Virus record (IMG/VR): IMGVR_UViG_3300009285_003187
Span: 1 to 54,532 of that record
Direction: 5' to 3' (one strand)
DNA from: a virus
DNA: 54,532 nt
Part shown: piece after piece, positions 3,609 through 48,281 of the stretch
Numbering within the stretch: position 1 is the stretch's first letter
Layout: every line of letters begins with the position of its first letter
Position numbers and translations under genes: made by a program
The notes under the pieces: generated by a model
What the model was told of the DNA's origin: nothing
The model's input: only the letters and a program-made list of their open reading frames with translations
Databases searched by the model: none

Positions 3609-3611
3609 AAG

Positions 3612-9681: not shown

Positions 9682-9885
9682 ATGACCATATCCGAAGCCT
9701 TCAACCTTGCTGACCGCCTGTTTCTCCTCTCCGGGCGCATTTACAGGGCCGCTACCGCCTCGCGGGACGGCAACGTGGACCTGTTTGAGCTCCAGATCAG
9801 AGAGTCATTTTCGGACGCCCTGAAGAAGTGCGGCCTGACTGACGACGAAGTGAAACGCCTTGTGGAGCCTGCCGATGGCACGTAA
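9682..9885 (+). CDS. Small hypothetical protein
   Basis: A 67-residue, helix-rich acidic protein between the lysis cassette and the ejection genes. It overlaps the start of the next gene by 11 bases. The sequence (FNLADRLFLLSGRIYRAA, then LKKCGLTDDEVKRLVEP) has no recognised domain. Coupling with its neighbours is the main support that it is real. Confidence 0.5.
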   Translation: MTISEAFNLADRLFLLSGRIYRAATASRDGNVDLFELQIRESFSDALKKCGLTDDEVKRLVEPADGT

Positions 9886-12800
9886 CCGCCGTGGACTCAG
9901 ATTCACCGGCTCGACTGGCCTGCTCGACCGGAGCAAGGGCGGGAGCGCCATGCGCAGACCGTCGTCCGGCCTGAGCTTAGGCGACACCGTAGACCTGTCC
10001 AACACCAACGCCACGCCCCTGACCGGGACCGGCTCGTCTCACGTCGGGCAGCGGCTCAGGGGGGCTGCCAATGGCAACGGCTTTAACCCCGACCCCCTGG
10101 GATCTGCCCTGACCCGCAAGGGCCTGGGTATCCTGCGTGACACCCCCACGTCCATCTACAAAACGCCGGAGGAGGAAGAACAGTACTATCGAGACTCCAT
10201 TCGGCGGCTCAACGAGTCTGCGGACGTGTCGCGCAAGCAGGCCGAGGAGCGGGCTATCTCCTCCGGGTTGCTCCACTCCGGGGCGCTCGTCGGGGAGTTC
10301 GGGGACATCGGGGAGCGGCTTGTCACGGCCACAGGGGAGCAACTTCGCGCCCTCAAGAAGGAGGATCGGGAGTTTGCGGACCAGTCTTTGGTCTCCAGAA
10401 CGGGTTTGGCGGCGGGCATCCAGGGGCAAGTTGCCGGGCAGGAGGTGGCGCGGGCGGGGTTGACGGGGATGCTGGACGGGCAGGCGACCATGGCCAGGCA
10501 AGCTCTCGACCAGCAGGCCCGGCAGGCTTACCGGGACGCCTACGGGGAGGAGCCACCCCCCGGCTGGACGCCGGACGCGGCGACGGGCCCGGGTGGCCTC
10601 CCTGCGGCAACAGCGCCCAGGACCCTAACGGCGCAGCGCACTCTGGCCGACATTGAAGCACAGCGGGCAGCCACCTCCCTGGCAGACCGCATCCAGACTG
10701 GGCAGTTGAGCATCGCCCAGGCAGAGCAGCTCATGCGAGAGGCTGGGCAGGCCGGTGGCCAATTCGTGAAAGACGCCAACACAGGCAGATACACATGGCA
10801 ACTTACCGAGGCAGCGCGATCTGCCAGGGCTGGAGAGCGCATCTCCGAGGCCGGCTTGACGGGGATGCTGGATGATCGGCAGACCCTGGAGGCGCAGAAC
10901 GCGGCGTTTCAGAGGGCCATCGCCAGGGGTCGGGAGACGGGGCAGTTCGTTGACCCGACGACAGGGTGGGTTTACCAGACTCAGGCCGCCCTTGAGCAGG
11001 CGTTCAGCCAGAAGATGAGGACTTCGGGCTTGATGGGGACGTTGGACGGGCAGCAGACCCTGGAGGCTCAGAACGCGGAGCTTCAGAGGGCCATAGCCAG
11101 GGGTCGGGAGACAGGGCAGTTCGTTGACCCGACGACGGGGCGATATTACCAGACCCAGGCCGCCCTTGAGCAGGCGTTCAGCCAGAAGATGAGGACTTCG
11201 GGCTTGACGGGGATGCTGGATGATCGGCAGACCCTGGCAAAGACAGGCCAAGAGGCTGACATTGAGCTCAGGCGCGCCTCCACATTTGGGTTGTCGGGTA
11301 CTGTAGCGCCGGGAACTGAAACCGAGGAATCCCGACGCAACAGGGCTGTCGAGGGCCTACAGGGCCGGGGAATCGCCGTCACCGAGGGTAACCTTGCCGA
11401 GGAGATTAGGCGCAGCAAGGTCAACGAAGCGATCCAGGCCGCTACGACCTTCGGCGCAGGTCTCGTTCTCCCGGATGGACGTCCTATCACGGTCAGAAAC
11501 GGTAGGGATGCCTATGATGGGGAGGAAAATTACATCGGGCGATATGACCCCAACGACGGGACTCTGTCGGTTTCTGACGGAAGGGTTCTGAAAGTCCAGG
11601 TCCCCACCCTGGCGCAGCAAGCACAATCACTTGAGACGGAACTTGGGCGTCGAGAGGCCAGCCGCCGCGAGCAAGAGCTTTACGGCGGAATCACCACAAG
11701 AGGGGCCAATGGTGCACTGACGTTCCGCCCCACCCTGTTGGCTCAGGCACAGCAGTTTGGCCAACAGGCTACCACCGCCGGACTGACCGGCAAGCTTCCG
11801 TTGCTCAGGGCCGACGGCACGCCCGCGAGGGATGCCAATGGTCAGCAGATTTACGGCGACACCTTAGACGCGCAGAGATTGGGACTTCAGACCAGCGAGG
11901 CATTTGGCGGAAAAGAGATTTTTCGATACAATCCAGATACCGGAAAAACGGAAAGGGCCTGGCAGGATACCCTGTCGGGCGGAAAATTGGCTCTGGACCG
12001 GCAGAACTCCGCGATGGATAGAGCTGCTATCGCGGGTCGGGAGACGGGGAAGTTTGTTGACCCGGATACGGGAGTCTCTTATAACACTCAGGCCGCCCTT
12101 GAGCAGAGTTTCAAGCAGAGAACCATCATGGAAGAACTCTACGGAGGTTATACCGATCCGAATACCAAGAAGGTCTACCTCACGCTTGAAGGTCAACTCC
12201 AGGCCTCTCAATTGACCGGAAAGGTGATTGATCCGACTGGAACCGCAAACTCGGACGGGTCTCCTAAGTTGATCGACACCATCGATGCCCTCAATGCCGC
12301 CGTGGACCGGGCGGCTAAACAGGGTGCGGCTATCGGGACCTACACGGACCCCCTGACCAACCTGAAGTCCGACACGCTACAGAAAAAGATCGTGTCCCTG
12401 GAAGAAGAGGGAACCTATGGCGGGAGATTTGTCGAGCAGGAGGACGGCACACAGAAGTGGCAGGGGACGTTAGCCTGGGAACAGATGGATCGAAACCAGA
12501 AACTGGCTTACGCGACCTTGGCCGAGGACACGCGACGAACGAAAGTTAAGGAGAAGTCAGCCCTGGCCGACCAGCTTGGATGGACCGACGCCGCGCCAGG
12601 AAAGGCGGCCTGGGGAGATTGGGCGCAGGCGTTCAGGGATTCCACCGAGGGAAAGCCCTACGACGTGGCGATGGACCTGGATGGAAACGGGAGAGTGGAC
12701 CTGGAGGACATGAGGTACGGGCAGACCAACGGTATCTTGGCCGCAACGGGAGAGACCTTCACCACGATGCAAGCAAAACAAGTGACCAGCCAGATCAACG

Positions 12801-13510
12801 CCGTTTCAAAGACCCTCGCACTCGACCGCGAAAAGCTCACAGAGGGGATCCGGCAGTTTAATAAGAACCTCTCTATCAACACCCGTGACTACCTGACGAG
12901 GGCCAGAGGATACGTCTACGGCGATGACGGCCTGCCTATCGAAAAACTTCAGCCAGACGAGTCACAGGCGTTCACGGCCTATGACGCAACTTCGATGTTT
13001 GAAGTCCTCTCTAAGCGGAATGGGGCCACCTTGAACCGTGCCGACCAGGGCTACAACCAAGCCTTCGACATGAATGATGACGGCCAGATTACAATGGATG
13101 AGCTCCAGGAAACCCTCGATGCTTCTGTTGCCCTGGCCTCCCCCCTGTCCACCGCAGATGACGAGAAGCGTTACACGGCGAAGAAATCACAGCAGTCCGT
13201 CTCCTCCCTGGAGCGCGAGCAGTTCAAGGATGATCAAGATCGATTCAATAAGTCTTTCGACATGAACCTCTCCAATTTTGCAGAGCAACTGGGCCTTGAC
13301 AAGGAAAGGTTGAAGAGCCTTGACGATGCCACTACAGCCGCCCTGGTCGGTACCCTGGCTACCGCCGTACTGGGCGCAGCCGCGGCTTACCTGGGCCGGA
13401 GCAAGTCCACCTCCGACAACACCTCCAGAGATGTGGGACCCCATGCAGGAGTGAGCTTTGGAACCGAAGGTCTATCCGTAAGTATCGGTTTGGGTGACAT
13501 CAAAGGGTAG
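9875..13510 (+). CDS. Large internal/ejection protein with repeats and EF-hand-like loops
   Basis: A 1211-residue protein; ATG at 9875 has GGAG seven bases upstream. The N-terminal region is helical with RKQAEERAISSGLLHSGALV, as in phage internal proteins. Residues about 190-560 contain several copies of a unit beginning GLTGMLDGQQTLEAQN and holding GRETGQFVDPTTG and QAALEQAFSQK; two are nearly identical at DNA level (period 174 bp). Two calcium-binding-like loops occur, DLDGNGRVDLED at about 934-945 and DMNDDGQITMDE at about 1065-1076. A glycine/alanine-rich membrane helix lies near the C-terminus (1153-1175). The position before two other giant genes resembles T7 gp14-16 or P22 gp7/16/20, which are ejected into the cell. 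Ejection is an inference. Confidence 0.65.
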   Translation: MARNRRGLRFTGSTGLLDRSKGGSAMRRPSSGLSLGDTVDLSNTNATPLTGTGSSHVGQRLRGAANGNGFNPDPLGSALTRKGLGILRDTPTSIYKTPEEEEQYYRDSIRRLNESADVSRKQAEERAISSGLLHSGALVGEFGDIGERLVTATGEQLRALKKEDREFADQSLVSRTGLAAGIQGQVAGQEVARAGLTGMLDGQATMARQALDQQARQAYRDAYGEEPPPGWTPDAATGPGGLPAATAPRTLTAQRTLADIEAQRAATSLADRIQTGQLSIAQAEQLMREAGQAGGQFVKDANTGRYTWQLTEAARSARAGERISEAGLTGMLDDRQTLEAQNAAFQRAIARGRETGQFVDPTTGWVYQTQAALEQAFSQKMRTSGLMGTLDGQQTLEAQNAELQRAIARGRETGQFVDPTTGRYYQTQAALEQAFSQKMRTSGLTGMLDDRQTLAKTGQEADIELRRASTFGLSGTVAPGTETEESRRNRAVEGLQGRGIAVTEGNLAEEIRRSKVNEAIQAATTFGAGLVLPDGRPITVRNGRDAYDGEENYIGRYDPNDGTLSVSDGRVLKVQVPTLAQQAQSLETELGRREASRREQELYGGITTRGANGALTFRPTLLAQAQQFGQQATTAGLTGKLPLLRADGTPARDANGQQIYGDTLDAQRLGLQTSEAFGGKEIFRYNPDTGKTERAWQDTLSGGKLALDRQNSAMDRAAIAGRETGKFVDPDTGVSYNTQAALEQSFKQRTIMEELYGGYTDPNTKKVYLTLEGQLQASQLTGKVIDPTGTANSDGSPKLIDTIDALNAAVDRAAKQGAAIGTYTDPLTNLKSDTLQKKIVSLEEEGTYGGRFVEQEDGTQKWQGTLAWEQMDRNQKLAYATLAEDTRRTKVKEKSALADQLGWTDAAPGKAAWGDWAQAFRDSTEGKPYDVAMDLDGNGRVDLEDMRYGQTNGILAATGETFTTMQAKQVTSQINAVSKTLALDREKLTEGIRQFNKNLSINTRDYLTRARGYVYGDDGLPIEKLQPDESQAFTAYDATSMFEVLSKRNGATLNRADQGYNQAFDMNDDGQITMDELQETLDASVALASPLSTADDEKRYTAKKSQQSVSSLEREQFKDDQDRFNKSFDMNLSNFAEQLGLDKERLKSLDDATTAALVGTLATAVLGAAAAYLGRSKSTSDNTSRDVGPHAGVSFGTEGLSVSIGLGDIKG
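10881..11228 (+). repeat. 174-bp tandem repeat in ejection gene
   Basis: Two near-identical copies (10881-11054 and 11055-11228) start at AGACCCTGGAGGC-type sequence and encode 58 residues each; a third, diverged start follows at 11229. More distant copies (GREKF-type units around 12030) appear further on. The high identity implies recent duplication or gene conversion. Confidence 0.8.
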
Positions 13511-13513: not shown

Positions 13514-14656
13514 ATGGCAGCTTTTCCTCGCACAACCTTAGACACGTTTGATCCCGCGCCGTCGGACTTCGACGCTCCCACGCTGAGTGGGCTTACCGGG
13601 GGGCGTCTGCTTGGCAGTAATCAGCCCAAACCCGATGTCGCCGCGACAGTTAAAAGGCATACCCGCCCCGACGGCAGCATCAACTGGTCGCAGGTCCTCA
13701 TAGCCCTGGCTGGCCTGGGGATCACCACCGGCATCGGCGCGGCTATGGGGGGTGGAAGGGGAGCACTGGCCGCGGCCGGGCAGGGACTTTTGGGACTAAC
13801 GGCAGGATTTGAGTCCGCTCGAAAGTCTGGGCTGGAAAATGAGGAGATCCGAAAGCGCGACGAAGACCGCGCCCTCCGGTCGGGCCTGGCGCTCAAGGCC
13901 GAGGAGCGGGCCGGGGACGCCGAGAAGCGAGCCAGAGACGCCGAGGAGCGGGCCAAGAAAGGTTTTGCGGAAGGGTCCACCAGCTCAAAGGTCGCCCGTG
14001 TGCGGGAGACGGGCGTACCGGACCCCGATCTGTCGGATGCCCTGAACTTGTTTGCTGTCGAGGAGTTCCGTCGCAAGCAGACGGAAACCAAAGAGGACCG
14101 GGAACTGAAGAAGCGGGCTACTGAGGCGCAGATTCGCAATCTTGACGAACCTAACCGGAACCCGCCCAGAGATCTGCAGAGCAGGTTTCTCCTTAAGAAC
14201 GAATCTTTGAATGATGGGTATGGAACCGTCATCCAGGTCCCCTACCTGATCAACCCGGACAATTCTCTGTCGCCTGTGGAGATTCGGAGGCCCTCCTCTG
14301 GCGGCGGAGCTGGTGGAGGGGGCGCTGGCGCTCAAGTTCCCATCTCCGGCCTGCCATCCGGCATCCGGTCCGGGCTGTCCTACACGTCCCCGCTTGCATC
14401 TTCGACTTCCGCCCCCTCGGTTTCGCCTTCGTCTGCATCTCCGCTTCCGGTGGCCCGGACGGGTGTGCCATTGCCCACAGAGAAGCCCGCCAAACCGTTC
14501 AATGTGAAATCCGCCGTGTCAGAGATTGCCGATAAATCCAACTGGACCACCATGAATGTTGAGGTTGCCATTGTCAATGCAATGAAAGTCGGCATGAATG
14601 AAGAAGCCGCAGTAAGGTATGTCGCCAAATACAAAAATGTTCTTCTTTCTCAGTAG
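13514..14656 (+). CDS. Internal virion protein with glycine-rich membrane segment and coiled coil
   Basis: A 380-residue protein. Residues about 60-97 are a glycine/alanine-rich hydrophobic segment (VLIALAGLGITTGIGAAMGG), like pore-forming ejection proteins. Residues about 100-150 are a charged coiled coil (AEERAGDAEKRARDAEERAK, a heptad pattern), then a Ser/Pro/Gly-rich linker and a short helical end. It lies between the two larger ejection genes and has the layout expected of a small membrane-active ejection protein such as T7 gp14. No catalytic motif. Confidence 0.55.
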   Translation: MAAFPRTTLDTFDPAPSDFDAPTLSGLTGGRLLGSNQPKPDVAATVKRHTRPDGSINWSQVLIALAGLGITTGIGAAMGGGRGALAAAGQGLLGLTAGFESARKSGLENEEIRKRDEDRALRSGLALKAEERAGDAEKRARDAEERAKKGFAEGSTSSKVARVRETGVPDPDLSDALNLFAVEEFRRKQTETKEDRELKKRATEAQIRNLDEPNRNPPRDLQSRFLLKNESLNDGYGTVIQVPYLINPDNSLSPVEIRRPSSGGGAGGGGAGAQVPISGLPSGIRSGLSYTSPLASSTSAPSVSPSSASPLPVARTGVPLPTEKPAKPFNVKSAVSEIADKSNWTTMNVEVAIVNAMKVGMNEEAAVRYVAKYKNVLLSQ

Positions 14657-14661: not shown

Positions 14662-17600
14662 ATGCCAACTTATTACGATTCAATCATTGAGGCTGAGGCT
14701 AAAAGAGCGGGGGTGGACCCCAATCTGATCCGGGCCATCGTGGAGAATGAGTCTGCGGGGGACACTAACGCCGTCTCGCCGAAAGGCGCTCGTGGTCTGA
14801 TGCAACTGATGCCGGACACGGCTCGTGATCTGGGCGTGCGCAATCTCCACGACCCATTGCAAAACATCCGGGGAGGCGTTCGCTACATCAAGAATTTGCT
14901 CGTGTGGTCCCAAGGCGATCCGGACAGAGCGTTGACCGCCTATCACGCGGGATATGGTTCCACGGCTGCAATTGGACCCTTGACGAAGGCATACGTCGCC
15001 AGGGTCATTAAGACAAAGGATGACCTGGACAAGGGTACGAATCCAGTGGTCTCCCGGACGGGCTTGGCCTCCGTTCCTCCGTCCCCTGGCACGCTTGATG
15101 ATTTCAGGCGGCAACTCAGGGCCGACTTTGGTGATGTGTCGGGGGATGGGTTGGAGCCTTTGATCTCCGTTCCTCCGTCCCCTGGCACGCTTGATGATTT
15201 CAGGCGGCAACTCAGGGCCGACTTTTTCGTTGGCCCTGGCACGCCTCCCGAGCTCGTCACCCCGCCTTCCGCGCCCATCTCCCGTCTCACGGCCCCCGGC
15301 ACGACGGCTGCGCTTGGCAAAGCACCCGACGGTGCGCATGGCGGAATGGGTAGCCAAGAGGTATATGAGTCCGGGGACGCCCTGCGGGGAACCATCCAGG
15401 ATGCCGCCCGGCTGACTTCCGGGCTGGCGGGACCGCCCCCAGATCGCTTGTTCTTCGAGGACCAGCCCTCCATGCCGGCTATCACGCCCGGTCTGGAACC
15501 GACTGCTGCCGAACGCCTGGTCCCCGGCCTGAGGGCCGTTCGCGTCGGGTTCGGCCAGCTCGTCCAGCCCCTTGCTGTGCCCCAGCCTGCGCCGACCGAG
15601 CCTGCCGTACCCCTCAAGCACCCTGAACCCCTCTACACCCCGGAGTTTGCCCCAGAGCGCGTTCCCTCCCTGCCGGAGTCCGCAGCGCGCGGTACGATCG
15701 CCGCCGTGGCCGGGCTGGCCGAAAGCCGGGGCGGGACGCTTGAAACTATCGGATCGGTCATGGGGTGGTCCCCCAGGCCGGAGGTGTCCATGGCCGGAAG
15801 GGGGATCAAGGCCGTCGGCGCGAAAATCAAGGAGACGACCCGACCCATCCTGGAGGCCGTCGCGCCGCAGCAGGCCCACCAGCGCGACATTGTGGAGAAT
15901 TGGAAGATCAACTTTGACCTGCTCGGAGACCTGAATTGGTGGGCCTACACCCTGCCTAATACCGCCGTCTCTGCGCTCTCCTTCGTAGCGACCGGCTCGG
16001 TGGGTGGCCCGCTGGCCGCCGCTGCGGACGAGTCCCTGATGGAGGCCGGGGAGACCTGGAACCGAGCTAAAGAGGCCGGGCTGTCCGATGGTGACGCCGT
16101 CGCCCTGGCTTCGGGCATCTTCGTCGCGAACATGTTGCTGGTCTCTCCAATGGCTATCCGGCTGTTCGGGAGCGTCCCCGGTACGGAGAAAGTCCTGAGC
16201 AAGGCCGCTGAGGTCGTGCAGAAAGTCCCCGGTGCGAAGGCCGTCAGTCGGATCTGGGAAAGTATCCCGGATGTCCTCAAGGCAATGGAGATGGAGGGAG
16301 GGCAGGAGATCCTTCAGGATGTGTCTCAGACCGCCGCCGAGCGCACCTACAACCCGGAGGCCAAAGGCCAGCCCTTCACGTCCGGGCTTATGGGGGTGGT
16401 CGGCGGTGGTGTGATGCACACGGGGGTCAGGGGCGTGGGACGGATGGCGATGCAGGCCAATGTCAGGGTCGCAGAACGCGCCGCCGAGGACCTCCGCAAG
16501 CGCCTGGTCCTGTCCAGAACATTACCCGGCATGGTCCGGGCGGAGGAGTTTGTGCCTGGCACGTCGCCGTCTGGCAGGACGACGGTGGAGGAATCTCGCC
16601 CGGTTCCTCCTCCTGCCCGCATCCTGCCGGGGGTCGTCCCTGGCGCTCGCCCGTCCGTGATGCGCCCCGCTGCCTCCATCCAGGCCCGCACCCAGGCCGC
16701 GCAGGATGCCCAGGACGAGGCCCTCCGGCGGGGGGAGATCACCGAACCCGGCCAACTCAGGGACATTGCTCTCCGGCGGGGCCTGCCGGTGGAGTCCCTG
16801 GTGCGGATGTCGGACGCTGAGGTCCGGGAGACCCTGGCCGCGCAGGAGCAGCCCCCGGAGGGGAGAGATCCCCTGGCCCTCGTGTCTCAGGGTGTGGTGG
16901 GTATCGACCCCAACACCATCGGGCCGCGCTACTACTCCATCCCGGCGGATCGCCGGACGGCGCTGTTCGAGCAAGGCGTCCTGAGCAAGGGGGGGGAGAG
17001 CCTGGGCAAGGCCGCCGAACGCCTGAAGATGTCGCAGATGGACCTTTACCTGACACTGAAAGGGCCAGCCCTGAGCGTAGCCGAAGGGCGGTCCCTGAGC
17101 ACCGCCGAAGGGGAAGGCAGGGCGGAGGCGGCGAAGGGGGAGACGCCCGTCCGTCCGCCGGTCGCGGAGCAGGGGCGCGTGGAGGTGGGGGAGCCTCCCG
17201 CACCCCCTCCGCCTGCTGGAATCCTTAAGTCTGAGGTTGAAACCGTAGGCACGGAGGAAACCGGTCCGCTTGGGGCGACGGCCGCGATTGAGGTGGGAAA
17301 GGCTACTCCGCCAGTTGAAATACCTGTGCCCCCTGTTGTTTATCATGCGGCCCCGGTTTCGGTTGAAAAGTTTGATGTAACGAAAGTCTCTTCTAATCAG
17401 ATCGCGGGAGTATATTTTTCCACGAAAACTGCCCCCGAATGGGGAGGAGGAAAACGGCCCTATCTTTATGAAGTGAAATTCAAAGAAGATACCCGCTTGG
17501 CCCCCCCAGAGATTGCCACGAAGGTTGCTGTAGAAACGATGGGGGAAGGAAAAAATTGGGGAAAGTTGGCGGCAGAAAAACTTCGGGCGATGGGATATGA

Positions 17601-20600
17601 CGGCGCTCAACGGAGCGAGCATGAGCTTGTTCTGTTTAACGTGGACAAGATTGACCAGTACTCAATAGTGCGTTCCCCGGAGGGGGGCTCGCGCCCGGTG
17701 GCAGCGGAGGCCGGTCCTGCGGGGGAGGTTCCGCGTGACGCGCCAGTGGATCGCCCGGCCCTGCGCCCGGTGGCAGGGGGAGCAGAGGGTGTGGCCTACA
17801 CGCCCGACAATCAATCTGTCACGTTCCGCTATGCCCTGGTGGAGGCGGACCAGCCCATCGTGTCCCACGACACGGCCCTGAACCTAAACCCGGATTACCA
17901 GAAAGAGCTTCAGCCGCGCAAGGAAACCGCCGGAGACTTAGAACTTCGGGTTTCCGATATTGTCAACAACTTCACGCCAGAGCTTGTAGGCGAGAACCCA
18001 AACGCCGGGCACGGAGCGCCCATGCTTGGAGAAGACGGGCAAACCGAAGGTGGAAATGCCCGAATAACGGCTATTCGCAGGATATACCAGAACCCGATCC
18101 ACGCCCAAAAAAGAGACGCCTACCGCAAGTTCATAACAGACAATGCCGCGAAGTTTGGCCTGGACCCTCAGTCTGTCGCTTCTGCGAAACAGCCTATTCT
18201 GATACGTATTCGCAAGAGTGGCGTTCCGAACCGGGCGGAGTTCGCAAAGACCATCAACGTCTCTGTCACAAAAGAGATGTCCGCCACAGAGAAAGCGATG
18301 GCCGACACGAGGGCTGTCAGTGAAATTATAAGCCTGTTCAACCCCGACGAAGACGGCGGCATAACAGCCTTCACAAACGCGGAATTTATACGACGGTTTT
18401 TGCAGAGTGTCCCCGCAAACGAAAGGACGGCTTTGGCCCCTGGCGGGAAGCTGGGCGACAGTGGAATTAGGCGTGTCCGAAACGCCGTTTTTTCGTATCT
18501 TTATGGGGACCCGGCGGCCATCGGACGCCTTGCTGAACGATCCGGGGACGATACGGCCAAGCACGTCACAGCGGCGATGGTTAAGGCGGCGGCGGACCTG
18601 GCGGCAGTCAAGTCGAAGGTCGCGCAGGGGACGCTTGCTCCCGCGCTGGACATCGCGCCCCACATTGCCGAGGCCGCCAACAAGCTGTCGGCCCTGAAGG
18701 ATATGGGGCACTCGGTCGATGAATACCTGCAACAGATTGATCCCTTCGACAAGACGAGCGACCTGGCGAAGGCCGTCCTGAAAAACGTGTTTAGCCGCTA
18801 CGGGCGCAGCGGAAAGAAGATCGCGCAGGCGTTCAAATACTACGCGGAACTGGCGCAGCAGCAGGGCGACCCCCGGCAAGTGGGGTTATTTGGGTCTGGG
18901 CAAATAGCCAGCCCAGAAACCCTGCTTACGGCCGCCATTGAGAAGGTTGAAGGAGAGCCAGATGCTCAAACTACCATTTTTGGGGAAGGCGAAACCAGCG
19001 CAGGTAGCCGGGTGGCTTCGGTATCTCCGCCAGCGACACCCGGACGTGCCCCCGATGCCGGTCAGCCCGCCGTCCCCCAACGGCAAGGACCACAGCCCGC
19101 CGACGTTGGAGAACCTGCCGACTTAACCCCTGAGCGCCCGAAAGTGGGCGATACCGTTTACATCAACGGAATGCCCTACAACTACCGGGGAACGACGGAC
19201 GGCACGAAGGCGACGCTCTACAACGAAAAGAGCGGGGCACAGATCGCGGTCCCCTTTGATCGCCTGGACGCCTCTCCTCCCACCGATGTCATAGACGCCA
19301 AAACCGCAGCGGCGATTTTACAGTCCGGCCGCGGTGGTGTCCTGCCCAAGTCCCCCCCGGGTCATCCCGAACCCACTGAGGATGAGTCTGAAGACGCTTT
19401 CGCTGCCCGACTCGACGTCTACCCCGTAGGGGCAAAGATCACAGTTCAGTCCGCCGACGAGCCGCATTTCGACGGCGAGTGGGAACTGAAGGCCATCGGC
19501 GGAACGAAACTCTGGCGCAAGGTCGGATCAAACCAGACCCAGCCCTCCGCCGCGTTCTATGGCCTGGACGTGTCCGGCGGGCCTGGTGGTGGACCCATCC
19601 GCGAAGCCCCCGCGCCCTACGAGGTTGCCCGTGCCGTGCGCCGCCCTGTCCGGCCTGGCATCGTCATGCCTGCCCTGGACGAGATCCCGGCTCCCACAGA
19701 GTACATCGCCAAAGGTCAATATAACGTCGATGAGCACCAGCGTCTTTTCGTCAACCTGGCCTGGACGGGCTTTGATCGGGGCAACAAGGCGTTTCTGTTG
19801 GCCGATGGGACCGGGATGGGAAAGAGCAGGGAAGGTATTCTTCTGGCCTACCTGTATGCCCGCAAGACCGGCAAACCCTCCCTGATCATCACGCAGTCGC
19901 AACAGATCATCGACGGTAGTTACCGGGAAGATGCCGTTGCCCTCGGTGTCCCGATCCTCGCGGGGGAGGGGGGTATTTCCATCCCCTCACTGTTTTCCCC
20001 GGACGCCGTGGCGCAGTCGCCGGTCAGGATCGGAACCTACAACATGCTACGGGACGGCCGGATCGGAGGGGGCGAGTATGGCTTGGTCATCTTCGATGAG
20101 GCCCACAACCTCAAGAACCTGTATGCAGCCAAGACCGCTGCGGCCAAAGGCGTCAACGCAGAAAAGCGCGTTTATGCTACCGCGACCCCGATGGACAGCC
20201 CGCAGGCCGCCACCTATTTCTTCCACGAGATCACCGGCAAGTCGGAGGCCACCATTCAGAGTCTCCTGGGATTTGAGCTGGTTCCGGAAGTTCGCGGTGA
20301 CCGCGTGGTGCAGGTCCCACGGCTCACGGAGAACCATCGGTGGGAAGACGTCATCCACAACATCGTCAAGATGCGCGATGAGGCTATCCGAAACTTCGGG
20401 GCCATCCGGCGGGAATACCCATTCTTCGGGGAGTTTAAAGTTCAGTCCATGCCGATGGGCCGCGACCTGGCCGATGAACAACTCCACATCGAGAACTATT
20501 GGGACGAAAAGATCCAGAAGGTTCCGCCGGGTCCAGTCAAGCGACAACTCGCGGGGGAGAGGTTGCAGGAGCTTAGCCGGTGGGTGGAGTCCAAGAAGGT

Positions 20601-23600
20601 CCCGCACGTCCTGGAGCAGTTGAAGAAGGACCTGGAAGCGGGCCGGTCGGTTGTTGTCGTGGCCGAAACCGTGAACCCGCAGTTAATCAAGGCCCTGAAA
20701 CGACAGGACCCCGGTTTCATAGGTGCTATGGCCGAGGCCCTGGATGGCGCAGGCATCAAGTTTTCCCGCATCTACGGCGACAACCCCAAATCCGCCGAGA
20801 TTGCCAACTTCCAGAGCGGGCGCGTTCGGGTAGCCCTGGCGACCCCGCAGTCCGGGGGCGCGGGCGTCAACCTCGACGACACGACCGGCGACCGTCCTCG
20901 CAGCCTCTACGTCGTCACGTCCCCCTACAGTGGAGACGTGTTCGACCAACTCCTGGGCCGGGTGTCAAGGCGCAACACGAAGTCCCCGGCGCAGGTCCGC
21001 CTGATCCATTTCACAAACTCCACATCGGACATTCGGCGCAGCGAGATCATCGACCGGAAGCTGGATGTTCTGCGTCGTATCCAGAGGGGCGACGACCCCG
21101 ATCTGGCGGGCCTTGAGCAGACCCGACAGGGGGAAGGAGGTGGCCTCGTGCGGGAGCCCGAAGCGCCCTACTCCACCGAGCCGGAGATGGCCCCGGCGTT
21201 CTACTCCGCCGTGCGCCGGGCTGTCGAGCAAAGGATGGGCGGCGCAGCCTCCCCGCAGGGCCTCAAGGCGATGCTGGAGAAGACACCGGGCGTCAAGCCG
21301 GAGGAGATGGAGGACACCGGCCTGGGCGCGTGGCTGGACGATCCTGCGCGGGGGACGAAGGTCAAGCGGGAGGACGTGCTGGCCTACCTGGACGAGAACG
21401 CCGTGCGGGTGGAAGTGAAGATGAGGCGGAAGCCCGCATATACCGATGAGGAAAGGCGTATTCTTGCTGGCACTTACGTCCAGCGTGAAACTGACAGGAT
21501 GAAATACACCCCCATCGCCTACCCGGTGGCCTGGCATCCGTTCGTCGATGTCGTGACCAACCCCCGCGAGATGCTGTTGACGTTACCAAGAGTCGAATCT
21601 TCTAAAATCACTGCACTCAGGGATGAGCTTGAGAATGTTCTTGCCCTACCCCTGCATGCAAAATATGAGGGAGAGGATCGAACCATAGCTTATGATCGTT
21701 TATACAAGGAATTTTTAACATTGGGAGGCACACCAAAAGCCCCCACCGGCTATATCGGCGGTCACTACTCCGAAGTCCCCAACACCGTCGCCTCCGCGCT
21801 CCTGGCCGATGTGGACCTGGGGGATGGAAAGAAAACCCTGCTGGTGAACGAGACGCAGAGCGACTGGCATATGGAGGGAAGGAAGGAAGGGTACAACCCC
21901 ATCACAAAATTGCCTGATGGCTACCGGGTTTCTCAGAGAAAAAACTTCCCTGGGTTTGAGGGACCCAGAAAATCGGAGTGGTCTGTTTTTGATCCAAATG
22001 GGCGCGTCGTTATTGATCCGGCCATAAACTATGAAATCAGCGCAACCAATGCGGAAATAGCGGAAGCGGCGGGGATTCGGGTCTTAAACTCCATGCTCGT
22101 CCCCAATGCCCCGCTCAAGCGGTCCTGGTCCGAGCAGGTCTTCAAGCGCGTCATCCGCTACGCCGCCGAGAACGGCTACACCCAGATCGCGTGGCCGACT
22201 GGCGAGCAGATCACCGGCAAGGGCGGGCGGTATGATGTGGGCAAGGAGTTGGATGAGGATGGGATAAAGTGGTTTTCTGGCGGAGGCAGGCGCGTCCTCT
22301 TGCGGGCCAATGCCATCAGTGGGAAATCCGTCCTGGACGGGCACTATGATCTGGACAAACTGGATACGGTCATTCCGAAAGGCGTCGCACAACAGATAGT
22401 GGACGCTTTCGGGCGCGGAGAACGCAAAGGCCAGATCAAGGGCGATAACCTCCGCGTCGGGGGCGAGTGGGCCGCCAACCTCTACGACAAGACGATCCCC
22501 TGGTTTCTGAATAAGTACGGCAAGCAATGGGGTGCGCGAGTGGGGGAGGGGACCCTTCCAAGAGGACAGAAGACGACCTTCAGGAGTTTCACGCAGGACG
22601 AGATAGACGGAATTTCTATTCGGGACGCATCGCAAGTTTTCCATCTCCACACCTTCCCCATCACCGACTCAATGCGCGACGATGTGATGCAGAAGGGACA
22701 GGCTCTCTATGAAAGGAGACAAGAATATGGCTCTGGTCAACGTATCCCTTCCCAGGAACAGATGGGCGCTAAAGATGTCGAGGACAACAGGGTTGTTGAT
22801 CGAGGACAGCGCCCCGTATTGGGTGGACATGCCCCCGAAGAACTCGACCAACAAGTCCTTGAAAGCCTCGACCGGGCGGCAGAAGTCCCGGCGTCGGTCA
22901 AGGTCGAGCGACTGACCACCCCGAAGGGCAAGTCCGGCACGGTGGAGAAGATCGGAAAGACCCTGGAAGATAAGATAGACCCGGTGAAGTTCGTGGGGCA
23001 CAGGGTTCTGGACATCCGGGACATTGCGGTCGTGGGCCAACTGGCCCGGTCTCCCCTGGTGGAAAACTTCGTCGTCTACCTGGTTGACAAAAAGACGCGG
23101 GAGATCGCAGACATCCGGGCGTGGTCGTCCCGCCTGCCTTCGGCGGTCAATGTTCCGTTCCTGAAAAGCCCATCGGAGATTGTGTCGTGGGGCGACGCCC
23201 TGCTCGGTAAGGAAAATTGGGCAGTAGCTTTCTCCCACAACCACCCCGGGGGAACCCTGACAGCTTCCTACGGTGATCGTCTTCAGACGATCCGCGCCGG
23301 GCGTTTGTTGGGGGATCGTTTTGTCGGCCACGTCATCATCAATGGCGGAAAGTTCGCCATCGTGGGAACTGACGGAAAAACAGTGATTGAAGACCTCCCA
23401 ACCGGCACGATCCAGAACTACACCGCCGAAGAGGGCGACACCATCACTTCTCCGCGCAGACTTGCCGAGATCGGGAAGCAACTCCAGATCCCGAACAAGG
23501 GGATTGCTCTTTTGCTGACCGATCAGGCAAGCGGCAGCCTGCGGGGAGTCCACATCGTCCCGTCGGACCTGATGCAAGACCCCGAAGCCTTCGCGGATCG

Positions 23601-26600
23601 CGTGCTGGAATTGGTCCGCTCCCACGGCGCGGATCGCGTGTTTGCTTATGGTTCTCCCGACCTTATGGGCGCTGCCCAACCCCTGATCAAAAATGGCACG
23701 ATTCTGGACTACGTGACCACCGAGCCGCAGTATCGGTCCCTTTCTGGACAGGGCACGCTCCCGGACAGAGGCATGTATATGGGCCAGCCCCTTGAGGGCT
23801 ACCCCACCGACCGCCTGGCCGAGCCTCCGGCTCCCTACGGCGACGAGGACCTGCCGCCAGACTTCGCGGAGTCGTCCTGGTTTTCAACTACGCCTGCGCC
23901 GCCTGCGCCGCCTGCCCGATCAAAGCGCGACCGGGACCTCAGAGACTTCTGGCGCACCCTTCAGGGCTTGGGGCGTCTCCATCCGGATGCCGAACGCGCA
24001 GGTAACGTCCTTCTCCTGGCCGACAACCGGATGCGACGGCGCACCCTCGATTACGAGACCCGGATCGACGCCATTCTTAAGGCCGTCCCCCAAAAAGAAC
24101 TCCCCGGCCTGTTCCGGGCGCTGGACAAAGGCAAGGTAGCCGCGACAGAACCCGCTCGCGCCGCCCAGGAAAAGATCCAGACCATGATGGAGAAGGCCCG
24201 CACCGACATCATTGCCACCATGCGGGCCTTCGGGTGGGAAGTGGCCGATGATTGGGGCATAGATGGCGCTTACCTCCCCCACCTCTACCCCGGCCACTAC
24301 CTCATCTACGCCACGCCCCCCGGAGGGGGAGAGCGCCGCCTGATCGACTCCGCCAGAACCGGCCTGGACGCCCGGATGCGTGTCCGGCATCACCGGGGCG
24401 AACTCGCAGAGGGCACGACCTTCACCTGGGACGCCAAGCCCATCAACAACCCGGACATCACCCGTCTGCCGTCCACGACCCTCGACCGCCTGACAAAGGG
24501 GCTGTCAGAGGCGATGGCTGCCGACCCCGCTGAAGTTCGGCGGGCCGCGCAGGGCATCCTGGGAACCACCTCCGGCAAGACTAAATCCTTTTGGAGCCTC
24601 CTGCACCGCACCGGGAAGGAAGGCTATTCGGACGATCTGCGACTGACCCTCCATGCCTACTTCAACGGTCTGACGCGCTGGCAAGAACTCAGCGAAGCTA
24701 ACCGGCAGTTCGATCCCCTGGTTGCTTCCCTGGAGGCGCAGTATCCCAACCTGGCCTCTGCCCTGAAGGAGCGGTTCAGTCATGTTTGGGGGGAATACTC
24801 AGAGACAACCCGACTCCTGGATGCTACCCTGGAGCGTATCCCCGGCGTGTCCGAGGTGATGGAGCCATACGCGCTCAACCGCTGGCTGAGTTATGTCCGG
24901 TCAGGAACGGCGGTTTTGATGCTGACGAACCCCGGTTTCCACATCGCCAACACTCTCCAGCTTCTCCAGACCCTCTACCCCATTGTCACGACGCGGGAAC
25001 TCGCCCATGGCGTAGGGGCCTTCGCCACCCCCACCGGCCAGCGCCTTCTGGCCAGGCATGGCGTGTCGGCGGCGGGAAAATACAGCGAGGGCCGGGTCGA
25101 GCGCCGCCCCCTGACCGAGAAGCTCAGCAACGTCATCAAGTTCATCCCGCCCCTGGTCTCCGAGCGCCGCAACCAGGAGATCGCCTTCCTGACGCTCTAC
25201 CACAAGGCCAGGAAGGAGAGTTACCTGGCTCCCTACCGGCTGCTGGTCCCGGAACTGCGCTTCCTGCTCGACGACCGCTCCATCACCCCGGAGAGTATCG
25301 CACAGATGGATCGGGAAGCGGTGCTGGATGCCTCCGCCGCCATCTATGCCCGGTTGCACGGCCAGTTCCGCAGCCAGTTCATGGGGAGTCGGGCCGACCA
25401 GATGCAGTTTGTCAACACCCCCATCAAGCAGACCGTGTTCATGTTTCGACGGTTCTCCGCCAAAGAAGCCGAACTCGCCCTGGATCTGATCAAGGGCCAG
25501 CAGTTCGAGGACGCCCCTTATAACCTCAAGGGTGGGCGAGTCCTGGCTATGGCGAAGATGGTGATTTTTAGGACGCTCCTTTCCGGCCTGAAATGGGGAG
25601 CGGTTTTGGCTGGCGCGGGCGCGGCTAAGGGCCTGTGGGATAAGGTTGAAGAGGAATGGGGTGAGGTTGCTGCCGACATCGTGATCTACGGTATCTCGTC
25701 CCTGGTTGGCCTGGACATGTCGGGCCGCTTCGCCGTCTTACGGTGGGATCACAACAAGAACCTCCCGGAGACTCTTGGGGAGTTGGTCACGGGTCCATCG
25801 GTCTCTCCGGCCATAGGGATCAGCTACGAATTTATGCGCCCGGAAAAGACGGGCGAGGACCCTGCGCCGGGTGTAATTGCGGGGGGGGCACGGGCTGGTC
25901 GCTACGCAATGGAGCGATATCCTCTGTTGCGGTTCGTGACCGGCATGGTGAAGTGGGCACAGGGGGACCACGACCTCGACACCCCTGGCGGGATGCTCAA
26001 GGCCCGGCGGGGCCTTTGGGAGAACCTGGCCTACGTTTCCAACATCAAAACGCTCGAAGAGTCCAAACAGCAGGACCTCCTGGACGCGGCCCTGGGGATG
26101 CAGGAGATGAGGCGGGATCTCAAGGCCCGGATTGTCAACGCATTGGCGTCCGACAACCCGAAGTCCGCCGACGAACTGATCCGGCAGGCGAACGCTCTGG
26201 GGTTTTCGCCGGACGCGGAGGATCTGAAAAGAGCCGTGGACGAGGCCCGCCACAGGAAGGGCATGACACAGATCGAGCGCCGGGCCGTGGGTGTGGATCG
26301 GGGGTTGAGGCCAATGGTTCGGCCCCTGGTGCAGGACCCCGAAACCCTGGCAAAGTGGAACCGCTCCGACCGCGACGCCCTCCGCTCCGACATCCTCGAC
26401 GCCTTCGCCCGCGCTCAGGACGGGTCCCTGCCCGCCGACGAGCGCCGCCAGGCCGACGCCGACTACCGCGCTCTGATCCAGCAGGCTGGGGGGGAGAAGG
26501 TCGTGATCGACGATTATGACCAGGACCTGAAGGAGGACCGCCGACGAGCGGGGGCCAGACCCGGCAAGATCACCCCCACGCCCAGGATCTGGTTGGGGAG

Positions 26601-26661
26601 GAAGCGGGAGGCCGTCCGGCGACGGATGCGCCTCCCCTTGAAGGAGGCTGCCGATGACTGA
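14662..26661 (+). CDS. Giant 3999-aa polyvalent ejection protein
   Basis: One uninterrupted frame. Residues 1-110: SLT-type lytic transglycosylase with likely catalytic Glu30, the GARGLMQLMP motif and AYHAG. Residues about 417-505: hydrophobic, possibly membrane-inserting. About 890-1006: segment starting VVYHAAPVSVEKFD, similar to ART-like or phage ADP-ribosyl domains (less certain). About 1050-1225: ParB/DdrB-like domain with QTEGGNARITAI. About 1690-2150: SF2/SNF2-like helicase with Walker A ADGTGMGKS (Lys1721), DEAH at 1812-1815, TATP and QLLGRVSRRN. About 2250-2700: ETQSDW and related stretches found in large phage proteins. About 2780-2925: JAMM/RadC-like protease with H2859-N-H2861, then S2869 and D2872 in the correct spacing. 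The C-terminal 1100 residues are helical with membrane-like parts and a YPLLRF motif near 3753. It likely ejects with DNA, opens the wall and counters host defences, as proposed for polyvalent proteins. Confidence 0.85.
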   Translation: MPTYYDSIIEAEAKRAGVDPNLIRAIVENESAGDTNAVSPKGARGLMQLMPDTARDLGVRNLHDPLQNIRGGVRYIKNLLVWSQGDPDRALTAYHAGYGSTAAIGPLTKAYVARVIKTKDDLDKGTNPVVSRTGLASVPPSPGTLDDFRRQLRADFGDVSGDGLEPLISVPPSPGTLDDFRRQLRADFFVGPGTPPELVTPPSAPISRLTAPGTTAALGKAPDGAHGGMGSQEVYESGDALRGTIQDAARLTSGLAGPPPDRLFFEDQPSMPAITPGLEPTAAERLVPGLRAVRVGFGQLVQPLAVPQPAPTEPAVPLKHPEPLYTPEFAPERVPSLPESAARGTIAAVAGLAESRGGTLETIGSVMGWSPRPEVSMAGRGIKAVGAKIKETTRPILEAVAPQQAHQRDIVENWKINFDLLGDLNWWAYTLPNTAVSALSFVATGSVGGPLAAAADESLMEAGETWNRAKEAGLSDGDAVALASGIFVANMLLVSPMAIRLFGSVPGTEKVLSKAAEVVQKVPGAKAVSRIWESIPDVLKAMEMEGGQEILQDVSQTAAERTYNPEAKGQPFTSGLMGVVGGGVMHTGVRGVGRMAMQANVRVAERAAEDLRKRLVLSRTLPGMVRAEEFVPGTSPSGRTTVEESRPVPPPARILPGVVPGARPSVMRPAASIQARTQAAQDAQDEALRRGEITEPGQLRDIALRRGLPVESLVRMSDAEVRETLAAQEQPPEGRDPLALVSQGVVGIDPNTIGPRYYSIPADRRTALFEQGVLSKGGESLGKAAERLKMSQMDLYLTLKGPALSVAEGRSLSTAEGEGRAEAAKGETPVRPPVAEQGRVEVGEPPAPPPPAGILKSEVETVGTEETGPLGATAAIEVGKATPPVEIPVPPVVYHAAPVSVEKFDVTKVSSNQIAGVYFSTKTAPEWGGGKRPYLYEVKFKEDTRLAPPEIATKVAVETMGEGKNWGKLAAEKLRAMGYDGAQRSEHELVLFNVDKIDQYSIVRSPEGGSRPVAAEAGPAGEVPRDAPVDRPALRPVAGGAEGVAYTPDNQSVTFRYALVEADQPIVSHDTALNLNPDYQKELQPRKETAGDLELRVSDIVNNFTPELVGENPNAGHGAPMLGEDGQTEGGNARITAIRRIYQNPIHAQKRDAYRKFITDNAAKFGLDPQSVASAKQPILIRIRKSGVPNRAEFAKTINVSVTKEMSATEKAMADTRAVSEIISLFNPDEDGGITAFTNAEFIRRFLQSVPANERTALAPGGKLGDSGIRRVRNAVFSYLYGDPAAIGRLAERSGDDTAKHVTAAMVKAAADLAAVKSKVAQGTLAPALDIAPHIAEAANKLSALKDMGHSVDEYLQQIDPFDKTSDLAKAVLKNVFSRYGRSGKKIAQAFKYYAELAQQQGDPRQVGLFGSGQIASPETLLTAAIEKVEGEPDAQTTIFGEGETSAGSRVASVSPPATPGRAPDAGQPAVPQRQGPQPADVGEPADLTPERPKVGDTVYINGMPYNYRGTTDGTKATLYNEKSGAQIAVPFDRLDASPPTDVIDAKTAAAILQSGRGGVLPKSPPGHPEPTEDESEDAFAARLDVYPVGAKITVQSADEPHFDGEWELKAIGGTKLWRKVGSNQTQPSAAFYGLDVSGGPGGGPIREAPAPYEVARAVRRPVRPGIVMPALDEIPAPTEYIAKGQYNVDEHQRLFVNLAWTGFDRGNKAFLLADGTGMGKSREGILLAYLYARKTGKPSLIITQSQQIIDGSYREDAVALGVPILAGEGGISIPSLFSPDAVAQSPVRIGTYNMLRDGRIGGGEYGLVIFDEAHNLKNLYAAKTAAAKGVNAEKRVYATATPMDSPQAATYFFHEITGKSEATIQSLLGFELVPEVRGDRVVQVPRLTENHRWEDVIHNIVKMRDEAIRNFGAIRREYPFFGEFKVQSMPMGRDLADEQLHIENYWDEKIQKVPPGPVKRQLAGERLQELSRWVESKKVPHVLEQLKKDLEAGRSVVVVAETVNPQLIKALKRQDPGFIGAMAEALDGAGIKFSRIYGDNPKSAEIANFQSGRVRVALATPQSGGAGVNLDDTTGDRPRSLYVVTSPYSGDVFDQLLGRVSRRNTKSPAQVRLIHFTNSTSDIRRSEIIDRKLDVLRRIQRGDDPDLAGLEQTRQGEGGGLVREPEAPYSTEPEMAPAFYSAVRRAVEQRMGGAASPQGLKAMLEKTPGVKPEEMEDTGLGAWLDDPARGTKVKREDVLAYLDENAVRVEVKMRRKPAYTDEERRILAGTYVQRETDRMKYTPIAYPVAWHPFVDVVTNPREMLLTLPRVESSKITALRDELENVLALPLHAKYEGEDRTIAYDRLYKEFLTLGGTPKAPTGYIGGHYSEVPNTVASALLADVDLGDGKKTLLVNETQSDWHMEGRKEGYNPITKLPDGYRVSQRKNFPGFEGPRKSEWSVFDPNGRVVIDPAINYEISATNAEIAEAAGIRVLNSMLVPNAPLKRSWSEQVFKRVIRYAAENGYTQIAWPTGEQITGKGGRYDVGKELDEDGIKWFSGGGRRVLLRANAISGKSVLDGHYDLDKLDTVIPKGVAQQIVDAFGRGERKGQIKGDNLRVGGEWAANLYDKTIPWFLNKYGKQWGARVGEGTLPRGQKTTFRSFTQDEIDGISIRDASQVFHLHTFPITDSMRDDVMQKGQALYERRQEYGSGQRIPSQEQMGAKDVEDNRVVDRGQRPVLGGHAPEELDQQVLESLDRAAEVPASVKVERLTTPKGKSGTVEKIGKTLEDKIDPVKFVGHRVLDIRDIAVVGQLARSPLVENFVVYLVDKKTREIADIRAWSSRLPSAVNVPFLKSPSEIVSWGDALLGKENWAVAFSHNHPGGTLTASYGDRLQTIRAGRLLGDRFVGHVIINGGKFAIVGTDGKTVIEDLPTGTIQNYTAEEGDTITSPRRLAEIGKQLQIPNKGIALLLTDQASGSLRGVHIVPSDLMQDPEAFADRVLELVRSHGADRVFAYGSPDLMGAAQPLIKNGTILDYVTTEPQYRSLSGQGTLPDRGMYMGQPLEGYPTDRLAEPPAPYGDEDLPPDFAESSWFSTTPAPPAPPARSKRDRDLRDFWRTLQGLGRLHPDAERAGNVLLLADNRMRRRTLDYETRIDAILKAVPQKELPGLFRALDKGKVAATEPARAAQEKIQTMMEKARTDIIATMRAFGWEVADDWGIDGAYLPHLYPGHYLIYATPPGGGERRLIDSARTGLDARMRVRHHRGELAEGTTFTWDAKPINNPDITRLPSTTLDRLTKGLSEAMAADPAEVRRAAQGILGTTSGKTKSFWSLLHRTGKEGYSDDLRLTLHAYFNGLTRWQELSEANRQFDPLVASLEAQYPNLASALKERFSHVWGEYSETTRLLDATLERIPGVSEVMEPYALNRWLSYVRSGTAVLMLTNPGFHIANTLQLLQTLYPIVTTRELAHGVGAFATPTGQRLLARHGVSAAGKYSEGRVERRPLTEKLSNVIKFIPPLVSERRNQEIAFLTLYHKARKESYLAPYRLLVPELRFLLDDRSITPESIAQMDREAVLDASAAIYARLHGQFRSQFMGSRADQMQFVNTPIKQTVFMFRRFSAKEAELALDLIKGQQFEDAPYNLKGGRVLAMAKMVIFRTLLSGLKWGAVLAGAGAAKGLWDKVEEEWGEVAADIVIYGISSLVGLDMSGRFAVLRWDHNKNLPETLGELVTGPSVSPAIGISYEFMRPEKTGEDPAPGVIAGGARAGRYAMERYPLLRFVTGMVKWAQGDHDLDTPGGMLKARRGLWENLAYVSNIKTLEESKQQDLLDAALGMQEMRRDLKARIVNALASDNPKSADELIRQANALGFSPDAEDLKRAVDEARHRKGMTQIERRAVGVDRGLRPMVRPLVQDPETLAKWNRSDRDALRSDILDAFARAQDGSLPADERRQADADYRALIQQAGGEKVVIDDYDQDLKEDRRRAGARPGKITPTPRIWLGRKREAVRRRMRLPLKEAADD
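15069..15225 (+). repeat. 60-bp direct duplication in giant gene
   Basis: The 60-base segment at 15070-15129 recurs without change at 15166-15225, each coding for a 20-residue unit starting SVPPSPGTLDD. It lies in the linker after the transglycosylase domain and keeps the frame. Confidence 0.85.
17069..17113 (+). repeat. Palindromic element pair inside giant gene
   Basis: Two back-to-back variants of the dispersed palindrome (CCCTGAGCGTAGCCGAAGGG at 17069-17088 and a CACCGC-core version at 17093-17113). They encode ALSVAEGRSLSTAEG at about residues 803-817 in a proline/glutamate linker, in frame. Confidence 0.8.
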
Positions 26662-27086: not shown

Positions 27087-27641
27087 ATGCAGGAACACAT
27101 CAAGCGCGAACTCCGCCGATCTGGGGTTTTTCTGCTCTGCACCCTCATCCTGATTCTGGCTATCTCCCTGCTGGCCTGCGGAAGGCACACCACGAAGCCC
27201 TTTCGACAAGCGCAGGGGCCTGCCCCGAGCGTAGCCGAGGGGCCGCAACAGCAACCGGACATCCCCCCGCCCGACTCCCCTCCCCGCGTTGAGGGAATTG
27301 CACTCCGGCCCCTGCCTGTCGTCTACTTCGACTTCGACCGCTACCACATTCGCCTCGACCAGAAAGACGCCCTGGAGGGGCTATATCTGGCCCTCCTGGA
27401 GCCCGGGCCATGGCATGGCCCGGCCGTGATCGCGGGCCACGCCGACGAGCGGGGAACGGACGGGTATAACCTGGCCCTGGGGCAGAGGCGGGCGGACACC
27501 GTGCGCCTGAACCTCGTCCGCCTCGGGATACCGTCCGACCACCTGCGCACCGTTAGCTACGGGGAGGAGCGCCCGGCAGACCCCGGCCACGACGAGGCGG
27601 CCTGGGGGAAGAACCGGCGGGTAGAATTGGTGGTACCATGA
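27087..27641 (+). CDS. Pal/OmpA-like lipoprotein
   Basis: A 184-residue protein; ATG at 27087, one base after the previous stop. It has a long hydrophobic signal and lipobox ISLLAC (cysteine 31). Residues about 77-184 are an OmpA-type peptidoglycan-binding domain: [11 protein letters not shown], the [20 protein letters not shown] core and a GKNRRVEL end, in the order and spacing of Pal. Residues about 38-53 come from a palindromic repeat inserted in frame. A peptidoglycan-linked outer-membrane lipoprotein could strengthen or alter the envelope of the infected cell; I do not know its role in phage. Confidence 0.8.
27198..27242 (+). repeat. Palindromic element pair in Pal-like gene
   Basis: Two adjacent variants, CCCTTTCGACAAGCGCAGGGG and CCCCGAGCGTAGCCGAGGGG, encode RQAQGP and SVAEGP in frame just after the lipidated cysteine. 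Confidence 0.8.
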
Positions 27642-35460: not shown

Positions 35461-35480
35461 CCCTGAGGGTAGCCGAAGGG
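35461..35480. repeat. Palindromic element
   Basis: CCCTGAGGGTAGCCGAAGGG, one of the dispersed repeat copies, in the gene-free tract. Confidence 0.7.
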
Positions 35481-48208: not shown

Positions 48209-48260
48209 TTGACATCCCGGAAAAACTTTCCTAAATTCCCCAATGTGTGCGATATGGCAC
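48209..48260 (+). promoter_or_regulatory. Rightward late promoter with dyad operator
   Basis: -35 TTGACA (48209-48214), 17-bp spacer, -10 TAAATT (48232-48237). The dyad TGTGCGATATGGCACA lies at 48245-48260, right over the expected start of transcription near 48244. This divergent layout with the promoter at 48149-48177 resembles a control region. Confidence 0.75.
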
Positions 48261-48281
48261 ATAAAAACCATCCCACCCAAT

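Follow-up and report, generated by a model that had tools for sequence, protein, structure and literature searches.

Phage genes for polyvalent proteins adjoin virion genes, according to the reference survey of this class (Iyer 2017, PMC5512222), and a zincin metallopeptidase is a common, not an obligatory, hub of the class. In phage P1, DdrB "aids DarB addition to capsid" and both proteins are detected in virions (PMC9024508); the Dar proteins are co-ejected, and their loading order is DdrA, DdrB, DarB, Ulx (PMC12810830). The 4515-aa gp69 of phage JC1 lies in the morphogenesis module, takes up 22.1% of the genome and is represented by 51 unique peptides in virions; it was detected, like P1 DdrB and DarB, by mass spectrometry (PMC9144972, PMC9024508). 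The N4 polymerase, with its ~3,500 residues arranged as beads on a string, passes through a channel of ~35 A on ejection (PMC12633501).

The window analysed here is the whole 54,532-base stretch of an IMG/VR virus record (IMGVR_UViG_3300009285_003187). One of its genes, P0001, encodes 3999 aa and accounts for 22% of the 54.5 kb. P0001 combines unrelated biochemistries in one chain, including the phage-restricted lysozyme and DdrB-ParB domains, and has virion genes nearby. Thus, it belongs to the phage-type polyvalent proteins (PMC5512222).

Genome context of P0001

The genome is podovirus-like and the giant gene adjoins virion genes:

72..1190, + strand: major head protein (phrog_334, 3e-22)
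4580..6154, + strand: virion structural protein (phrog_3287, 2e-14)
9860..13510, + strand: 1216-aa repeat protein with an EF-hand-like motif and a C-terminal hydrophobic segment, putative ejection protein
13514..14656, + strand: 380-aa protein containing a hydrophobic stretch, by position and sequence a second candidate ejection protein
14662..26661, + strand: P0001, polyvalent protein gene, 3999 aa, single open frame
48243..49802, + strand: terminase large subunit (Pfam and PHROG profile matches)
49905..52019, + strand: P22-like portal protein (Pfam, 6e-37)

The terminase, portal, head and structural genes are all on the strand of P0001. The 1216-aa and 380-aa genes lie directly upstream of it and both encode hydrophobic stretches; by position, these large neighbours and P0001 form a trio that recalls the ejection-protein trios of N4, T7 and epsilon15. 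With its ends lying between the portal side and the head protein gene, the record is consistent with a permuted and almost complete genome, although it yielded no terminal repeat over its 54,532 bases. A DNA-level search found no similar phage.

Three further observations concern the window as a whole. The G+C content at 42001-44000 is 0.42, versus ~0.6 elsewhere, a possible recent acquisition. A minus-strand ORF (39613-40953; phrog_31813) contains a 12-nt period repeated ~38 times, in overlapping copies, at 40119-40960. A REP-like palindrome (CCCTGAGCTTGTCGAAGGG / CCCTGAGCGTAGCCGAAGGG) occurs about 16 times, against a chance expectation of <0.1; two of the copies are in frame within the giant gene and one is within the portal gene:

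17069-17112, 27199-27242, 30635-30654, 31082-31101, 32136-32155, 35461-35480: REP-like palindrome copies, part 1
36023-36087, 36433-36475, 36805-36847, 37439-37457, 43861-43880, 50830-50849: REP-like palindrome copies, part 2

Repeats of this type are common in certain bacterial chromosomes but not in phages, and the copies here might point to the host or to a mobile REP system.

Domain architecture from the lytic transglycosylase to the helicase

The features of P0001 are, from the N-terminus:

14662..14991, + strand: SLT lytic transglycosylase, residues 1-110, catalytic E30 (Pfam SLT, PHROGs)
15070..15225, + strand: peptide SVPPSPGTLDDFRRQLRADF twice, residues 137-156 and 169-188 (66-nt direct repeat D11, 97%)
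15919..16176, + strand: most hydrophobic stretch of P0001, residues 420-505 (hydropathy)
17069..17112, + strand: tandem pair of in-frame REP-like palindromes, residues ~803-817
17314..17691, + strand: ART-like segment, residues 885-1010 (ART-PolyVal below cut-off)
17767..18975, + strand: DdrB-like ParB domain and DdrB-specific C-terminal part, residues 1036-1438 (Pfam, P1 DdrB homology)
19663..21141, + strand: SF2 helicase/translocase of SNF2/Strawberry-notch type, residues 1668-2160 (Pfam, conserved motifs)
21169..22761, + strand: unnamed widespread phage module "QSDW", residues 2170-2700, modelled core 2361-2700
22984..23391, + strand: RadC-type JAB/JAMM domain, residues 2775-2910 (Pfam, relatives, AlphaFold2 model)
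23434..23769, + strand: segment C-terminal to JAB, residues 2925-3036, conserved in part among JAB relatives
23899..26658, + strand: C-terminal 920 residues, 3080-3999, without assigned family

The frame reported by the first-pass annotation at 14662-26661 is intact, with 3999 codons and no internal stop, and its coding score is far above those of all other ORFs in the window, a partly circular result given that the codon table was trained on the P0001 ORF itself. All of the residues named in that annotation are numbered correctly: E30, K1721 (ADGTGMGKS), D1812 (DEAH), H2859/H2861 (HNHPGG), S2869 and D2872. Profile searches bear out its SLT, DdrB/ParB-like, complete SNF2-like helicase and JAMM metal-site calls, Pfam matches being present for the helicase and JAB segments on which the claim hinged. 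Its ART-like segment gains weak support, with ART-PolyVal below the Pfam cut-off. "JAMM protease" is right as to JAMM and too specific as to protease, the domain being of RadC type with a disputed class of substrate. The estimate that about half of the chain is unassigned is fair: the domains then proposed cover ~45% together with the module at 2163-2700. The size, called unusual, is ordinary for the class: relatives reach 4500-5900 aa, the fetched loci hold 23 ORFs of >=3999 aa (a count that is not deduplicated), and isolates have proteins of 4515 and 4675 aa. With four domains confirmed, a fifth weak, a phage-type domain set and adjoining virion genes, polyvalent (ejection) protein is still the best reading. 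P0001 is the only one of the fetched chains with more than three profiled domains, among loci that end 10 kb from the match.

In the whole-chain search, Pfam SLT matches residues 8-101 (4.6e-22); this part also matches PHROG lytic proteins and phrog_342, an internal virion protein with endolysin domain. The two SVPPSPGTLDDFRRQLRADF copies (15070-15129 and 15166-15225) are a near-exact 66-nt duplication in the linker C-terminal to SLT. The hydropathy of residues 420-505 marks a possible membrane-active segment, and residues 441-576 have one viral relative (L046). ART-PolyVal (PF18760) matches slices at ~890-950 with an E of 9e-4 and 20.4 bits, versus a cut-off of 31.2, over profile positions 6-66 of 140 only; H895, Y918 and E988, read by eye, are a possible H-Y-E triad of this segment.

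The DdrB-like part is recognised over the full Pfam ddrB-ParB profile (PF18763; residues 1049-1185, 3.6e-26, 92 bits, profile 2-121 of 121, whole chain). G1131, N1132, R1134 and Y1154, which make up the ParB signature G-N-x-R and a DdrB-specific tyrosine, are invariant in six homologues. P0001 thus has the full profile, the active-site arginine (R1134) and the extra-helix tyrosine (Y1154) that define DdrB-like ParB domains. Residues 29-430 of P1 DdrB (995 aa) align with P0001 1044-1432 (31%, 3.6e-40). The isolate Piluca has an epsilon15-gp16-like protein that aligns over the same 1044-1432 and carries SLT in the same protein.

Helicase models, including Strawberry-notch, match from residue 1688 on. 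SNF2 and ResIII reach 4.9e-5 and 8.2e-5 with the whole chain; in slices both are above their Pfam thresholds (27.3 bits, cut-off 24.9, and 27.9 bits, cut-off 22.5). Motifs I, II, III, V and VI are kept in the alignment of eight relatives. Scanning IMG/VR with the helicase yields 68 loci, and 45 non-redundant chains of at least 1500 aa bear it; scanning the helicase alignment against genomes found no relatives. The helicase profile does not match P1 DarB, so that the P0001 helicase represents another branch of the same superfamily. PADLOC hits to ZorD reflect the shared SNF2 core only. DdrB and helicase occur in one chain in at least three cases (P0001, L105 and L118), in differing domain order. 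This fusion is a new point, the two being separate proteins in P1, and provides independent evidence for a DdrB-helicase link.

P0001 lacks an adenine methylase: no Pfam methylase family and no [DNS]PP[YFW] motif is present in the chain. Thus, P0001 is not a DarB. It also lacks a zincin, with no HExxH in the chain and no zincin family in Pfam. Replacement of the methylase by JAB was considered for the helicase giants and rejected (methylase motif in 0/10 JAB-positive versus 7/35 JAB-negative chains, Fisher p 0.32).

The RadC-type JAB domain, the QSDW module and the C-terminus

Pfam RadC matches residues 2800-2898 (7.4e-4 with the whole chain; 1.9e-5 and 25.0 bits in a slice, cut-off 22.1), and all JAMM metal-site residues are present in RadC spacing (E2801, H2859, H2861, S2869, D2872). 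The AlphaFold2 model of the region has a pLDDT of 69 overall and mostly 75-92 in the JAB core; its clear best structural match is RadC 2qlc (Foldseek 1.5e-5, VIA Z 14.4), followed by AMSH (VIA Z 9.0). NCBIfam RadC matches over profile positions 111-203 of 212 only; the domain is therefore not RadC proper. In residues 2925-3036 the modelled order of strands and helices resembles that of JAB; a tandem MPN+/MPN- pair with a JAB repeat there was rejected, the profile comparison not being significant (probability 3%).

In viral contigs, iterated searches find JAB relatives in 10 of the 45 helicase giants and in three further QSDW giants; nine QSDW-bearing chains from bacterial genome contigs also have them. 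JAB is C-terminal to the helicase in nine of the ten helicase-JAB giants (binomial p 0.02). An 11-sequence alignment has the Glu, first His, Pro, Gly, Ser and Asp invariant and the second His in 10/11. Eight of the ten helicase-JAB relatives bear a zincin-like HExxH motif besides JAB; P0001, L106 and L104 have JAB without it. Adjacent to the relatives lie genes for virion structural or tail proteins in L104, L106 and L122 and for phage-type integrases in L010 and L113. JAMM enzymes of other kinds act as isopeptidases. For RadC-type JAB domains, Iyer et al. argue for a nucleic-acid role, the peptide-tail groove being thought missing, and their survey places RadC only in conjugative-element polyvalents (PMC5512222). 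At least 13 giant phage proteins carry such a RadC-type JAB domain and are counter-examples to that rule.

The QSDW module has no Pfam family in P0001 and none consistently in 49 aligned relatives. Its PHROG match is phrog_7348, whose "endolysin" annotation probably refers to other segments of these giants. A profile scan confirms at least 552 relatives in IMG/VR contigs, and a genome scan adds 109 from many bacterial phyla and archaeal bins. These relatives are reached only by alignments, not by single-sequence pieces; a viral scan with the single piece 2168-2954 found none. The carriers are mostly giant: most of 85 viral ORFs exceed 1500 aa, the largest being 5896 aa and still open, and those from genome contigs have a median near 2400 aa. 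The order QSDW-JAB is kept in two genome-contig chains, L240, aligned to P0001 2180-3059 (26%, 1e-62), and L241, aligned over 2180-2899. A cultured source of the module is the isolate Dolichospermum phage Dfl-JY45, whose 2387-aa protein has two QSDW modules in one chain (L237, 12391-19554).

In the QSDW alignment, H2368, N2374, G2389, Q2399-S2400-D2401, G2406, G2410, P2481, W2489, G2514, L2597, G2600, Y2608 and D2609 are identical in 49/49 sequences. The core model has a pLDDT of 81 and a pTM of 0.75. A Foldseek search of the PDB with this model gives no significant hit (best E 0.28), and we therefore assign it to no known fold; among viral models, it hits large phage proteins only. A PDB profile search with the alignment has no match. 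With VIA, practically all of the top 27 rows are GNAT/HAT acetyltransferases (Z 6.7 to 3.8; first unrelated row 3.7), values below 8 that may reflect a common arrangement. A profile comparison with 31 GNAT sequences gives a pairwise E of 0.008, versus 0.12 to 0.7 for four unrelated controls, and the conserved PFK-x-TW...KRMIRYAAENGYDxIAWTTGEQ stretch aligns with the GNAT motif-A helix and strand. The best structural matches are thus GNAT acetyltransferases such as KacT, AtaT and GCN5, from which QSDW differs by large insertions and the lack of a recognised canonical acetyl-CoA loop. On the model, we lean somewhat towards a GNAT-like fold, as a lead rather than an assignment because Z is below 8 and the canonical loop is not visible. 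No published name was found for the motif; it may equal one of the 40 LPDs of Iyer et al. that was never filed in Pfam.

Residues 3080-3999 match no family over cut-off in Pfam, PHROGs or NCBIfam, and no relatives were found in viral contigs, phages or fetched genome loci, nor in a single-piece scan with 3080-3950. An LPD38 profile grown from L007 matches near the C-terminus of many giants; among sequence profiles, Pfam has no LPD38 hit at the C-terminus of P0001 and the L007-grown profile is silent on 3050-3999. The ~1000 C-terminal residues without a known relative may hold the main function.

Probable mode of action and comparison with known systems

P0001 is probably a phage-type polyvalent protein carried in the head of a podovirus with a P22-type portal, from which it would leave together with the DNA. 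Acting early in infection, it most likely works like P1 DdrB combined with the DarB helicase half, with a wall hydrolase and further enzyme modules attached. We infer the following order of action. P0001 would be loaded into the prohead, where its DdrB part may help to load the fused helicase, as the separate DdrB does for DarB in P1, and on infection it would be threaded out domain by domain. SLT would open the peptidoglycan and the hydrophobic segment would engage the membrane. The SNF2-type translocase may act on incoming dsDNA or on host complexes bound to it, among which type I restriction enzymes are the likeliest candidates. Within the first minutes, nucleotides, DNA or host proteins may be targets of the ParB, RadC-type JAMM, ART-like and QSDW modules. 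Because P0001 has no methylase, the published DarB mechanism cannot apply to its chain alone, and protection would come from the translocase and the associated enzymes rather than from methylation of incoming DNA by P0001. An anti-restriction role is plausible, although P0001 lacks the methylase half of the DarB dyad. Against this reading, the chain has no zincin peptidase by which it could be divided into units.

It is quite unlikely that JAMM takes the place of the zincin as a self-processing peptidase that cuts the chain in the cell, an addition to the ejection reading. P0001, L106 and L104 do have JAB and no HExxH, and self-processing by zincins is an idea published for the class; RadC-type JABs, however, are taken to lack the peptide-tail groove (PMC5512222), and the two motifs coexist in most helicase-JAB relatives. 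Somewhat less improbable, though still unlikely, is a protein that serves mainly in entry, its SLT, hydrophobic segment and C-terminus forming or driving a trans-envelope conduit like T7 gp16 and epsilon15 gp16/17 and its enzymes being exchangeable passengers. The phrog_342 match of SLT, the joining of SLT and DdrB in Piluca, the hydrophobic 420-505 and the free shuffling of enzyme domains among relatives suit such a role, which overlaps the ejection reading and is not fully exclusive of it; however, the helicase and JAMM catalytic motifs are conserved across distant relatives, which suggests that these passengers are kept for activity.

A PLLRF string near residue 3754, which we take to be PLxRF-like, is only a lead for relating P0001 to the virion RNA polymerases of the N4/Schitoviridae type, single ejected chains that start transcription. 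Its size, position and multi-domain build resemble those of the N4 enzyme (PMC12633501), but no RNA polymerase family appears in the Pfam, PHROGs and NCBIfam searches, which makes the relation highly improbable. That a conjugative-element polyvalent strayed into a viral contig, or that the assembly is chimeric, is suggested by the listing of RadC as specific to conjugative-element polyvalents (PMC5512222) and is extremely improbable: phage-only SLT and DdrB-ParB are in the same chain, the P22 portal, terminase and head genes are within the same 54.5 kb, the QSDW region has no match in 72,556 plasmids, and the JAB relatives lie beside virion and tail genes or phage-type integrases.

In many phages, proteins of this kind reach the cell before gene expression starts, which makes their domains candidates for new counter-defence activities. 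The QSDW module is unnamed, very widespread and strongly conserved, and is now open to expression and assay. We suggest, tentatively and with considerable doubt, that it represents an unrecognised superfamily of ejected acyltransferase-like effectors, among the commonest modules of giant phage proteins, and that, together with a RadC-type JAMM and a DNA translocase, it forms an early counter-defence set that has no methylase.

Related giants contain other enzyme domains: an inorganic pyrophosphatase in L005 (2e-50; 996-1129), a weak GHKL ATPase-like match in L006 (giant residues 2309-2418) and a PBECR1 nuclease in L008 (1230-1332). They show the deck from which giant chains are dealt.

P0001 shares with P1 DarB and the JC1/Bcep22 DarB-like giants an SNF2-type helicase and, presumably, packaging in the head as a large protein, but lacks their adenine methylase; like the JC1 giant, it follows morphogenesis genes and makes up ~22% of the genome. 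P1 DdrB, unlike P0001, has a C-terminal HELGH zincin motif (at 872) and is a separate protein, whereas in P0001 the DdrB part is fused to the helicase. The 4675-aa WPJ30526 of the Pseudoalteromonas podophage vB_PalP_Y7 has a DdrB-like part at 528-916 (30%), a similar giant size and a similar genome size (57.7 kb); it differs by an adenine-methylase motif (NPPF) and by not matching the helicase, JAB, QSDW or SLT profiles of this analysis. The JAB domain has the fold and full metal-site motif of RadC (2qlc), without its N-terminal HhH part and embedded in a giant phage protein. P0001 resembles the polyvalents of Iyer et al. (PMC5512222) in uniting numerous disparate domains in a single large chain next to virion genes, among them SLT/lysozyme, DdrB-ParB, SNF2 ATPase and ART-like domains; it lacks a zincin, an adenine methylase and a recognisable LPD38, and has a RadC-type JAB and the QSDW module (2170-2700), neither of which is described in that catalogue of phage polyvalents. 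The new points are RadC-type domains among phage polyvalents, the fusion of DdrB with the helicase and, most of all, the widespread unnamed QSDW module.
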